62,287 nucleotides of DNA from Methanobrevibacter olleyae (lineage in GTDB: Archaea > Methanobacteriota > Methanobacteria > Methanobacteriales > Methanobacteriaceae), in NCBI RefSeq assembly GCF_900114585.1, contig NZ_FOTL01000009.1:1-62287 (forward strand). The letters are read 5' to 3'. The notes below the pieces were generated by a model. That model did not search any database, was not told the DNA's origin, and was given only the letters and a program-made list of their open reading frames with translations. The position numbers were made by a program, and so were the translations under genes. Positions 31,005 to 36,029 of this stretch are shown one piece after another (positions within the stretch are counted from its first letter, which is position 1; the number at the start of each line of letters is the position of its first letter).

Positions 31005-31810
31005 ATAATCACTCATTCATAGTTATGATTTCCATTTAATCATGAAATAAAATAAATTTAAAAAAAGTTTTAAATTAAAGAATAACTTAAATAAATTTTA
31101 AAAATAATTAATTATTAAAAAATAATTTAAATAAATTTTAAAAACGATTAATTAAAAAATGATTAATAATTATTAAAATTATGTTATAATTTATGAAATT
31201 AAACTTATATAAATATAATTAAAATAGAGTTTAAAATTTAATTAATTTAATAAAAAAATAGTTTAAATAAATTATTAATAATAAAAAATAGGTATAAAAT
31301 CTAATATGTTCATAGAAATTTAAGAAAATTAATTTAGAAGGCTTCTTATAAAATTTAAGTATTAGTCTTAAAAGCAATATCAAAAATTCTACAAACATAT
31401 TAGATATGGCAAATCTAATAAATCGGTTTAGCAACAATATTTATCAGATAATTATCAATTTAAATTTCTTTATATTTAAATCCTTCTATTTTAATCAATT
31501 AATTTAACTAATAAAGGACAAATATTTAGTTATACTTAACTTAAGTCAATGAAAATAGAAAAATTTAGTTATACCTAAATTAAATAAAAAATAGTAAAAA
31601 ATAGATAAAAAACCATATTTATCAAAGGAAAACAAGTACAAAAAGACAACTCTGTGATAAATATATCTTATGGTATTTGAATAGTAAATAATAACTGAGG
31701 GAAATAATTTATTATTAGCTGACTAAGCAATAATTAAATTAATTTTAAGAAAATTTAAATAAACATTACTTATTTTCTATTTTTTGTCTTTTAAATTACT
31801 TGTTAATCCT
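31005..31810. other. Long intergenic region with possible structured RNA and operator-like sites
   Basis: No convincing gene is found. A 68-residue hydrophobic frame at 31231-31437 lacks a ribosome binding site and is not supported. The right part contains two operator-like 16-mers (31525-31579) and paired segments between 31617 and 31712 (ATTTATCA with TGATAAAT; AATAATAA with TTATTATT) that could fold as RNA. Confidence 0.4.
31525..31579. promoter_or_regulatory. Two operator-like near-palindromes
   Basis: TTTAGTTATACCTAAA (31564-31579) is palindromic at 14 of 16 positions, and TTTAGTTATACTTAAC (31525-31540) is a weaker copy. They share the CCTAAA/TTTAG half-sites of the cluster at 32043-32100, on the other side of the 34-residue ORF. 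The pattern resembles binding sites of DtxR-family metal regulators; this is inference. Confidence 0.5.
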
Positions 31811-31915
31811 TTAATAGCCAATGCGCCAAGAATAACATCCCCCTAATAAATGACGGCTTAATAAATGGCCATGATGCATATGACCTCCAGTAAATAAGCG
31901 AGACCCTCTTGACAT
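31811..31915 (-). CDS. 34-residue His-rich small protein (not previously framed)
   Basis: The frame encodes 34 residues with five His, four of them in GGHMHHGH (residues 10-17), and a C-terminal CYSWRIGY. The Shine-Dalgarno is perfect (GGAGGTAAAAAATG), the strongest in this part of the window, and two TATA-like elements lie 60-80 bp upstream. Local base composition is clearly richer in G and C than the flanks. The composition suggests metal binding (Ni, Cu, Zn or Fe), and the operator-like palindromes on both sides fit metal-dependent control. I recognise no family; the coding call rests on the ribosome binding site and composition. Confidence 0.6.
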   Translation of the reverse strand: MSRGSRLFTGGHMHHGHLLSRHLLGGCYSWRIGY

Positions 31916-31972: not shown

Positions 31973-31998
31973 TTTTATATACCTATTACTATATAAAT
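31973..31998 (-). promoter_or_regulatory. TATA elements for the 34-residue ORF
   Basis: On the minus strand TTTATATAG (31989-31997), with CCGAA just upstream as a possible BRE, and TATATAAAA (31973-31981) lie at distances that would give a 5' leader of about 35-55 nt containing the GGAGGT. Confidence 0.45.
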
Positions 31999-32042: not shown

Positions 32043-32100
32043 TTTAGTTTTACCTAAAATAAATTTAATATAGCCTAAAAAATATTTTGTTATGCCTAAA
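32043..32100. promoter_or_regulatory. Three 16-bp operator-like sites at exact 21-bp spacing
   Basis: TTTAGTTTTACCTAAA (32043-32058), TTTAATATAGCCTAAA (32064-32079) and TTTTGTTATGCCTAAA (32085-32100) start 21 bp apart, two helical turns. All end in CCTAAA and begin with TTTA or TTTT. The cluster is upstream of the 34-residue ORF promoter and downstream of the TIGR04076 gene. The constant phase suggests cooperative binding of a regulator. Confidence 0.55.
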
Positions 32101-33452: not shown

Positions 33453-34268
33453 ATGACTAATCAAATTAATGATCCTGAAGATATTGATTGGGCTTATTTT
33501 TGGGCTTGTAAATTAGAGGCAAAAAAAGATAGAGCTAAGGATTGGAATAAAGCTGCCCCTAATTTTGGAAAATCTGCAAAAAAAGATGATTATCACAATA
33601 AGTTAATTGAAAGGATTGATCTATCTAAAGAAGATACTCTTTTAGATTTAGGTTGTGGAGAAGGAAGTATTACAATTCCTCTTGCAAAAAAAGCAAAATC
33701 TGTAACTGGAGTAGATTCAGCATATAAGATGATTGAAATACTAAATGAAAAAGCTAAAAAAGAAAATATAGATAATATAAAAACAATAGAAGAAGATTTA
33801 ACCAAGATTACAATGAATAATGTAGGAGCACATGATATCGTTGTAGCTTCAAGGTCATTAAACGGAGTACTGAATATAAAAGAAACCATTACAAATATTA
33901 ATGAAATAGCTAATAAATATGTTTACATAACTCTTTTTGGACCAAACAATTGGAAATTAGAAAAGGATTTCTACCAGTCAATCAATAAAGAATATTTTGA
34001 ATTTCCATCACATAGATACTTCTTCAATATACTTGTAGATATGAAAATTTATCCTAATGTTGAAAATTTAAATATTGGTAATGAGCGAGAATACACAAGT
34101 ATTGAAGAAGCTTTAGAAAGTGGAAAATGGAGATTGGATACTTTAAATGATAAAGAAAAAGAATCATTATATAAATACCTTGAAGACATTCTTGATGAAA
34201 ATGAAAATGGTAAACTTTCTAATCCAAATGATAAAGCAGATTGGGTATTATACTGGTGGAAGAAGTAA
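33453..34268 (+). CDS. Class I SAM-dependent methyltransferase (first of three paralogues)
   Basis: The SAM-binding motif I is LLDLGCGEGSITIPLAKKAK (~residues 66-85), followed by VTGVDSAYKMIEIL (motif Post I) and HDIVVASRSLNG (motif II). The N-terminus (IDWAYFWACKLEAKKDRAKDW) and C-terminus (ADWVLYWWKK) are shared with the two downstream genes. The family is uncharacterised; small-molecule or corrinoid-related substrates are possible. GGTGAAATC precedes the ATG. The gene is intact at 271 residues, so it shows what the second paralogue's N-terminus should look like. Confidence 0.85.
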   Translation: MTNQINDPEDIDWAYFWACKLEAKKDRAKDWNKAAPNFGKSAKKDDYHNKLIERIDLSKEDTLLDLGCGEGSITIPLAKKAKSVTGVDSAYKMIEILNEKAKKENIDNIKTIEEDLTKITMNNVGAHDIVVASRSLNGVLNIKETITNINEIANKYVYITLFGPNNWKLEKDFYQSINKEYFEFPSHRYFFNILVDMKIYPNVENLNIGNEREYTSIEEALESGKWRLDTLNDKEKESLYKYLEDILDENENGKLSNPNDKADWVLYWWKK

Positions 34269-34404
34269 ATTAATAATTTTAATATATCATTAAATATGAA
34301 AAACAATTTAAAAAAAATAATCAGAATAGTGATTAAATATGACTAGAAAAATCATGATTTAAGATGAAACTGAAATTGATTGGGATGAATTTTGGACTAA
34401 AAAA

Positions 34405-35160
34405 ATGGATATAAAAGGAGATAGAGGTAAAGATTGGTCTAAAGCAGCTATAAAATATAGTGAACGTGCAAGTGAAGATAATTATACAGAACAATTAATT
34501 TCAAAAATGATTCTTTCTAGTGAAGATACTCTATTAGATGTCGGCTGTGGTGAAGGAAGCCTAACCATCCCATTATCTAAAGAAGTATCCTCTATAACTG
34601 CTATTGACACAACAGATAAAATACTTGAAATATTAGATGAAAAAATTAAAGAAAACAATATCAAAAATATTAAAACAATTAAAGATGATGTAAATGATTT
34701 AACTTTAGAGAAATACGGCAAATACGATATTGTTTTAGCTTCAAGAGTAATAAACAGTATAAAAAGCCCTAAAAAAGTATTTTCTAATCTTAATGAAATA
34801 GCTAATAAATATGTATTTATAACTATATTCGGCCCAAATAACTGGAAGTTAGAAAAAGACTTCTTTAAATATATCAATAAAGAATATAACGGTGCACCCT
34901 CCTATATAATTCTTTTGAATCTTCTTGCAGAGATGGAAATTTATCCAAATGTAGTTAACTTAGATGTTGGACCTATTAGAACATATGAAAACATTGAAGA
35001 GGCTATAGACAATGGAAAATGGAATCTAGAAAAATTTACTAAATATGAACAGGAATTATTAGCCAAATACCTAGAGTCTATTCTAATGGAAAATGAAGAA
35101 GGGTTATTAACTAATCCAAATGATAAACCAGATTGGGTATTGATTTGGTGGAAAAAATAA
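34405..35160 (+). CDS. Class I SAM-dependent methyltransferase (second paralogue, N-terminal nonsense codon)
   Basis: Motif I (LLDVGCGEGSLTIPLSKEVS) and the C-terminal PDWVLIWWKK are intact. The homologous N-terminus continues upstream in the same frame (DETEIDWDEFWTKK, 34363-34404) to an ATG at 34339 with GTGATT before it, but a TAA at 34360-34362 interrupts that frame. Translation must start at the ATG at 34405, which has no good ribosome binding site and loses about 22 residues compared with its neighbours, or the gene is decaying. TAA excludes pyrrolysine. A sequencing error is the other explanation. The remaining 251 residues look under normal constraint. Confidence 0.7.
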   Translation: MDIKGDRGKDWSKAAIKYSERASEDNYTEQLISKMILSSEDTLLDVGCGEGSLTIPLSKEVSSITAIDTTDKILEILDEKIKENNIKNIKTIKDDVNDLTLEKYGKYDIVLASRVINSIKSPKKVFSNLNEIANKYVFITIFGPNNWKLEKDFFKYINKEYNGAPSYIILLNLLAEMEIYPNVVNLDVGPIRTYENIEEAIDNGKWNLEKFTKYEQELLAKYLESILMENEEGLLTNPNDKPDWVLIWWKK

Positions 35161-35204
35161 GTTTATTAATACAAACTTAACATCTATAGGATATTGGTGT
35201 AAAA

Positions 35205-36029
35205 ATGAAAATAGAAGATGGGATCAATCCTTTAGAGCTTGACTGGGAATATATATGGCAAAAATCAATCAAAAAAGGCTTTAAAAAAGAGAAAGATTGG
35301 GATAAAATAGCGAAAGATTATGGCAGATGGCTTGAAAATGATGACTATCCCAATACTTTATTAAAAGAAATGAGAATATCCTCTCAAGACACAGCTTTAG
35401 ATATAGGATGTGCAGAAGGCACTATAACTAGGAAAATTGCTAAGAAAGCTAAATCTGTTACTGGTATTGATAAATCAAAATTAATGTTAGAAGAACTAAA
35501 TAAAAATGCTTTAAAGGATAATATTAATAATATTAAAACTATCCAAATGGATATAAACGACATCAGTCATGAAAAAATCGGCAATTATGATATTGTACTA
35601 GCATCAAGATCTTTAAATGGAATATATAATATAAAAGATACTCTTTTAAGCCTTAATGAAATAGCTAACAAATATGTTTACATAACCCTTTTCGGTTCAT
35701 CAAACCACAAATATAAAAAAGAAAAAGCTAAAATAGCTGGAAAGATATTTAAAGCCGGAACCGATTATATTGTTTTAGTCCTTATTCTCAAAAGCCTTGG
35801 AATTGAAGCAAATGTAGTTCAATTAGAATGTGAAAATCTAAAAGAGTATCATGACTTTGATGAAGCTATTAATAGATCTCTTTGGAGACTTGGTGATTTA
35901 GAAGAAGAAAATAAAATAGCATTAGAGAATTATTTTAAAGAGATATTCGTTAAAAATGAAAGGGGAAACTGGGTCAATCCTAAAGATAAAACAGATTTAG
36001 TATTGATTTGGTGGAAAAAAGAAGAATAA
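35205..36029 (+). CDS. Class I SAM-dependent methyltransferase (third paralogue)
   Basis: The protein starts with LDWEYIWQKSIKKGFKKEKDW, has motif I ALDIGCAEGTITRKIAKKAK (Ala replacing the second Gly of GCGEG), VTGIDKSKLMLEEL, and ends TDLVLIWWKK. It is 274 residues and full length. GGTGTAAAA precedes the ATG, 44 bp after the second paralogue. It diverges more from the first two than they do from each other, especially in the 180-225 region, which suggests a different substrate. The three genes arose by tandem duplication. Confidence 0.85.
   Translation: MKIEDGINPLELDWEYIWQKSIKKGFKKEKDWDKIAKDYGRWLENDDYPNTLLKEMRISSQDTALDIGCAEGTITRKIAKKAKSVTGIDKSKLMLEELNKNALKDNINNIKTIQMDINDISHEKIGNYDIVLASRSLNGIYNIKDTLLSLNEIANKYVYITLFGSSNHKYKKEKAKIAGKIFKAGTDYIVLVLILKSLGIEANVVQLECENLKEYHDFDEAINRSLWRLGDLEEENKIALENYFKEIFVKNERGNWVNPKDKTDLVLIWWKKEE

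Follow-up and report, generated by a model that had tools for sequence, protein, structure and literature searches.

RyhB-type and other bacterial iron-responsive antisense small RNAs are the closest described counterparts of one part of the locus analysed here. Its promoters recall TTAGG-type palindromes, the pattern of DtxR/IdeR-type iron boxes; at mycobacterial ferritin genes, IdeR/DtxR regulators activate transcription from upstream tandem boxes. Helicobacter Hpn is a small His-rich metal-binding protein. Small proteins are also known beside metal transporters: PacL (DUF1490) and PacL-like (DUF6110) proteins are partners of P1B-ATPases, and PacL1 carries a short His/Asp metal-binding motif beside its membrane part; DUF6110 proteins are typically encoded with P1B6-ATPases and are without a predicted metal-binding motif (PMC9374683, PMC13043812). 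In the literature searched, which covers the field in part, DUF6110 is mentioned in just two papers.

The locus lies in a stretch of 62,287 nucleotides from Methanobrevibacter olleyae (contig NZ_FOTL01000009.1, positions 1 to 62,287), here called the window. The interval between gltX and a TIGR04076 gene would be an iron-control locus with two minus-strand transcription units. In the favoured reading, held with moderate confidence, unit 1 carries a frameshifted gene for a His-rich protein and unit 2 a small RNA (sRNA) directed against feoB. The candidate antisense sRNA is a more interesting find than the small ORF.

Unit 1 contains the ORF of 34 residues with a Shine-Dalgarno sequence reported in the preliminary description. 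It is present at 31,811–31,915, on the minus strand, which had gone unstated; its ATG lies at 31,915 and its translation is MSRGSRLFTGGHMHHGHLLSRHLLGGCYSWRIGY. The leader (TTTTGGAGGTAAAAAATG / ATTTTGGAGGTAAAAAATG) carries GGAGG, with a 6-nt spacer to the ATG. GGAGG followed by an ORF of at least 34 codons arose in 2 of 5,000 shuffled sequences, generated at random so as to keep the intergenic dinucleotide statistics. The locally G/C-richer composition described earlier is borne out as well, at 36% G+C over the ORF and tail vs 17% in the intergenic region. Given this rarity among shuffles and the raised G+C, the ORF is beyond chance.

The end of the ORF belongs to a different frame. In a sister species (G016), an ORF of 51 residues (MSKGIGLFHGRHRHHGNHGHLLSSHLIRDLAIGALAVKGLTSTLKDKENRK) is intact at the equivalent site upstream of gltX, with a leader (GTTTTGGAGGTAAAAA) near-identical to the window's. 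It is the sole intact copy among 18 genus relatives, and the intact protein is known in the window's genus from this one thinly covered metagenome-assembled genome (contig coverage 1.7). Used as a single query, the orthologue matches the window twice, with residues 1–28 in the reported frame (E 0.009) and residues 28–49 in another (E 0.001). The frame break falls at a G5 run (CCCCC on the plus strand) at 31,839–31,843 on the minus strand, and the displaced gene tail, DVILGALAIKGLTSNLKDKK*, occupies 31,777–31,842 (minus strand). The tail is matched at E 0.001 by the orthologue alone and at 4e-10 by a two-sequence profile, which strengthens both window matches but itself contains them, the tail included. 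Reading four Gs as one step restores MSRGSRLFTGGHMHHGHLLSRHLLGDVILGALAIKGLTSNLKDKK, with 67% identity to the G016 orthologue. The first 25 codons of the reported ORF are the gene's His-rich head and the last nine are out of frame. Because the two-frame match to the orthologue breaks at the CCCCC run, CYSWRIGY is a frameshift product, an artefact of ...DVILGALAIKGLTSNLKDKK. The octapeptide had been taken for the C-terminus, and no conserved end corresponds to it. Searches with the 34-residue frame returned no match except itself, since its end is out of frame; weak matches to this query in G026–G028, G043 and G138–G140 were judged chance. The window copy of the small gene is probably a recent pseudogene.

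Other relatives have gone further. In G012, G004 and G008, the unit 1 promoter and downstream sequence are kept, and the ORF is unrecognisable or interrupted by stops; unit 1 is absent from most of the remaining genus genomes. The small His-rich gene is in course of loss within the window's genus. The preliminary description had held that a frame not conserved, or frameshifted, in close relatives would speak against it, and this is largely what the genus presents, with an intact copy in one of 18 relatives and decay in three. Its proposal that the 34-residue frame is a functional peptide does not fit a frameshifted copy of a 45-codon gene whose locus is decaying in most relatives. Its broader proposal, a metal-related small protein under metal control, gains support at the level of the family, from the His-rich head, DtxR-type boxes like those of feoAB and the adjacency to DUF6110 and ATPase genes. 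On the 3' side of the ORF lies a conserved non-coding block, TAGTCAGCTAATAATAAA...CCCTC...ATATTTATCACA (31,620–31,760, minus strand), recognised by sequence conservation. A target search with this block gave nothing convincing. Within it, ATATTTATCACA is invariant in five species.

The protein family extends beyond the window's genus. Family ORFs of 41–45 residues are found in four genomes of another genus (G093, G113, G124, G131), exemplified by MGRRHRHGRSPSLLNLLIPHHRSASVNLVRDVALGAFIAREIIKK, which has a GGAGG site in front. A further copy is cut off at a contig end (G097). The fragment that led to these ORFs, in G135 of the other genus (g5), is interrupted by a cassette with inverted-repeat ends. 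Members have in common a head rich in His and Arg and a tail built on RDVALGA. Searched directly, the G135 sequence reaches the orthologue in the window's genus at E 0.05; about 18 residues carry the cross-genus match, and the compared sequences are themselves part of the A2 profile. On these sequences, homology of the small proteins of the two genera is likely, not certain. Considered as a possible transmembrane segment, the 18-residue tail has a mean hydrophobicity of 0.17–0.49 and a moment of 0.09–0.44. The 51-, 45- and 34-residue proteins match no Pfam family, and NCBIfam gives no match for the small protein. The MxCxxC motif of Atx1/CopZ-type copper chaperones is absent, and the proteins have 41–51 residues vs about 70. 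The family is undescribed and patchy in distribution. Mobile elements occur beside it: the cassette splitting the gene in G135 (L035/L141) has long inverted-repeat ends and carries a 181-residue ORF, and in G124 (L142) a TnpB-like (IS605-type) gene lies directly 5' of the small ORF.

Gene neighbourhood links the family to metal transport. In the other genus, the small ORF lies upstream of a DUF6110-type gene and a P-type ATPase; in the four complete cases (G093, G113, G124, G131), it is followed by the gene for an 88-residue protein and that for a heavy-metal P-type ATPase of about 715 residues. The window genome's 89-residue counterpart of the 88-residue protein matches DUF6110 (PF19605), and its gene adjoins the ATPase, divergent from feoAB. 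In the window's genus, the small ORF is not beside the ATPase, and the DUF6110/ATPase genes are elsewhere in the genome. The arrangement in those four genomes resembles PacL and DUF6110 systems in that a small protein is encoded with a heavy-metal P-type ATPase; it differs in that DUF6110 is here a separate gene adjoining the small His-rich ORF, and the family itself, at 41–51 residues, has its His-rich stretch at the N-terminus and is without a Pfam or NCBIfam match. The His-rich neighbour could provide the metal-binding motif that DUF6110 is without. Hpn, likened here by description only, is also short and His/Gly-rich; the present family is smaller, has fewer histidines and is regulated differently. 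In the gap between the small ORF and the DUF6110 gene, two loci of the other genus (L143, L145) hold more units that have asymmetric boxes and TATA and no obvious ORF, possibly small RNAs; one of these units contains CTTATACC and ATGATTTTACCTC, resembling anti-Shine-Dalgarno stretches.

Both units of the window have predicted promoters, and upstream of the ORF both the TATA elements and the operator-like sites of the preliminary description were found. In unit 1, boxes of the TTTAGG-N4-ACTAAA type occur three times at intervals of 21 bp, all on the minus strand: box 1 (TTTAGGCATAACAAAA, 32,085–32,100), kept in five species; box 2 (TTTAGGCTATATTAAA, 32,064–32,079), 21 bp from box 1 and recognised by sequence comparison; and box 3 (TTTAGGTAAAACTAAA, 32,043–32,058), 59–60 bp upstream of the TATA box in five of five species. 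The TATA box itself (ACCGAATGATTTATATAG context, 31,990–31,997, minus strand) is near-identical in five species. Unit 2 repeats the arrangement on the same strand, with an operator box of the same pattern (TTTAGGTATAACTAAA, 31,564–31,579), a second, weaker one 59 bp upstream of TATA (GTTAAGTATAACTAAA, 31,525–31,540) and a conserved TATA box (TTTAAATAT, 31,472–31,480). The distance from the nearest box start to TATA is 59–60 bp for unit 1 (five species) and 58–59 bp for unit 2 (four species); in two loci of the other genus, the box-to-TATA spacing is 30 bp. Upstream of feoA, the window genome has four full palindromes, TTTAGG-N4-CCTAAA, which have a half-site in common with the unit 1 boxes. 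Three tandem, related methyltransferase-like genes occupy 33,453–36,029 of the window, and palindromic iron-type sites also precede two methyltransferase-like genes (L082, L083) other than these.

Box position bears on the sign of control. Because the boxes lie well upstream of the archaeal TATA, activation is favoured over repression; the conservation of the boxes as such could equally fit repression. As in IdeR/DtxR activation, the DtxR-type boxes are tandem and upstream of the core promoter; the differences are an archaeal TATA promoter, asymmetric boxes with a 21-bp period and a regulator that is putative.

Unit 2, boxes included, spans 31,579–31,280 on the minus strand, between the small ORF and gltX. 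The candidate sRNA (31,280–31,453, minus strand) has two hairpins followed by a U-run. Two arms on this strand are complementary to feoB: arm a (31,406–31,433) to codons 1–10 and arm b (TTTTATACCT, 31,290–31,299) to the Shine-Dalgarno stretch AGGTATAA. In the pairing, TGCTAAACCTATTT..TTAGATTTGCC meets codons 1–10, and TTTATACCT, past an inserted hairpin, meets the Shine-Dalgarno stretch. The sRNA block is found in 13 genus genomes (12 aligned, the window included, and G009), and about seven of these also have iron-type boxes upstream of it. When the family was searched with the sRNA, an element of about 30 nt recurred in many genomes besides the block itself, and this element corresponds to the start of feoB in reverse complement. 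A copy in another genus (L087/L121, G117) is 87% identical to the window's and sits on a 3.5-kb contig, which could reflect transfer or contamination.

Among 205 translation starts, feoB ranks first for the sRNA in 11 of 11 species (ten others and the window). For nine species, the energy of the duplex is 4.0 to 5.3 standard deviations lower than for shuffles; in a tenth (G002), whose feoB stretch is truncated by a contig end, z is -2.4. Changes are common to RNA and target in particular lineages: in G011 and G008, GAG and GTATACC are present in the sRNA and in feoB alike, and other genomes differ there. By inspection, single silent feoB changes in G004, G009 and G016 retain G-U pairing. The TATA box, both hairpins and the U-rich end are conserved, TATA and hairpins in 11 species. 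RNAalifold finds two pairs changed on both sides in the second hairpin; with two such pairs, covariation lends the fold by itself weak support. Rfam returned nothing credible over the locus. Taken together, unit 2 is a candidate structured RNA antisense to the feoB start. In the window's own copy, about 85 nt are inserted into the second hairpin, and arm a has four mismatches or gaps against the feoB of the same genome, so this sRNA may be weakening too. Two other readings of unit 2 were dropped: a mere gltX leader, as a separate, conserved TATA serves gltX further downstream, and pure operator sequence, as the recurrent matches in many genomes are feoB starts.

Unit 2 is like RyhB-type RNAs in being short and structured, with a terminator-like end and complementarity to the translation start of an iron gene. 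It differs in being archaeal, in its long bipartite match to feoB, in having no Rfam family and in a box position that points to expression when iron is high, opposite to RyhB.

Several other explanations compete for unit 1. The frame break is a one-base difference in a G5 run, and the remaining tail is conserved in a single frame, as would be expected if a sequencing or assembly error concealed a strain that makes the full 45-residue protein. Such an error is somewhat unlikely: gltX next door is intact and full length, a run of five bases is short for common short-read errors, and loss is plausible for a gene decayed in three relatives. That the 34-residue peptide itself is a functional metal-binding peptide, its tail replaced and the short form still working, is very doubtful. 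The GGHMHHGH head and strong Shine-Dalgarno sequence are intact and the promoter is conserved, but CYSWRIGY is in none of the relatives, the identifiable homologues all carry a (R/G/H/K)D-x-x-x-GA tail, and the His-rich head itself is lost in three relatives. Unit 1 might instead be an untranslated regulatory RNA with the ORF as a passenger, an idea encouraged by the promoter and downstream non-coding block that G012, G004 and G008 keep despite ORF loss, and by an adjacent unit 2 that resembles non-coding RNA. Change between the window and G016 is nevertheless codon-like, with dN/dS of about 0.39 (0.21/0.55) and a 9-base in-frame indel as the sole other length change within the frame, and among relatives in the other genus the protein is encoded within an iron-box context; the untranslated RNA is judged improbable.

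For unit 2, the competing explanation is an inverted feoB fragment left by recombination, or an operator cluster, with no antisense RNA gene. The unit does carry the reverse complement of about 30 nt from the start of feoB, and parts of it resemble operator half-sites (TTAGATTTGCCTAT); in some relatives, a TTAGATTTGCCTAT-like element precedes the P-type ATPase as well. Against a relic or cluster of this kind stand the TATA box and two hairpins conserved across 11 species, the retention of both antisense arms around an inserted hairpin, and the lineage-specific changes in common with the target; it is considered rather unlikely.

The favoured reading, an iron-control locus of pseudogene and sRNA, suggests the following mechanism. 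A putative metal-loaded DtxR-family regulator would activate both units at high iron through the boxes about 58–60 bp upstream of TATA. The product of unit 1 would once have been a small protein, rich in His and about 45 residues long. Where intact, this protein may act at high metal as a metal-binding or delivery partner of the P-type exporter, a role suggested by the adjacency of the family, in the related genus, to PacL-like DUF6110 and heavy-metal P-type ATPase genes. The frameshifted gene of the window probably makes only the His-rich head and an unrelated nonapeptide. The sRNA arms would pair with the feoB Shine-Dalgarno sequence and first ten codons and, when iron is abundant, keep the iron importer from being translated. 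Of the steps in this mechanism, the sign of regulation is the least secure. If the boxes repress, the sRNA would be made at low iron and oppose uptake, which is physiologically less sensible. A general Methanobrevibacter-type iron-excess programme, in which a DtxR-type activator acting at boxes 21 bp apart drives both a feoB antisense sRNA and a His-rich exporter partner, is put forward tentatively, as an idea falling somewhat short of probable.

Each kind of part has precedents; what appears new is their occurrence together in a methanogen, along with the sign of control expected. In the literature searched, no archaeal small RNA directed against feoB or an iron transporter is reported, and since that literature is covered in part this is weak evidence of absence. 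For the small ORF, reading from sequence alone had the setting right and the product wrong. Little is established about iron control in gut methanogens, and the locus offers a concrete RNA-target pair with common lineage-specific changes and defined promoters. If the proposed programme is true, the sRNA would mirror RyhB in an archaeon, with its synthesis at high, not low, iron.
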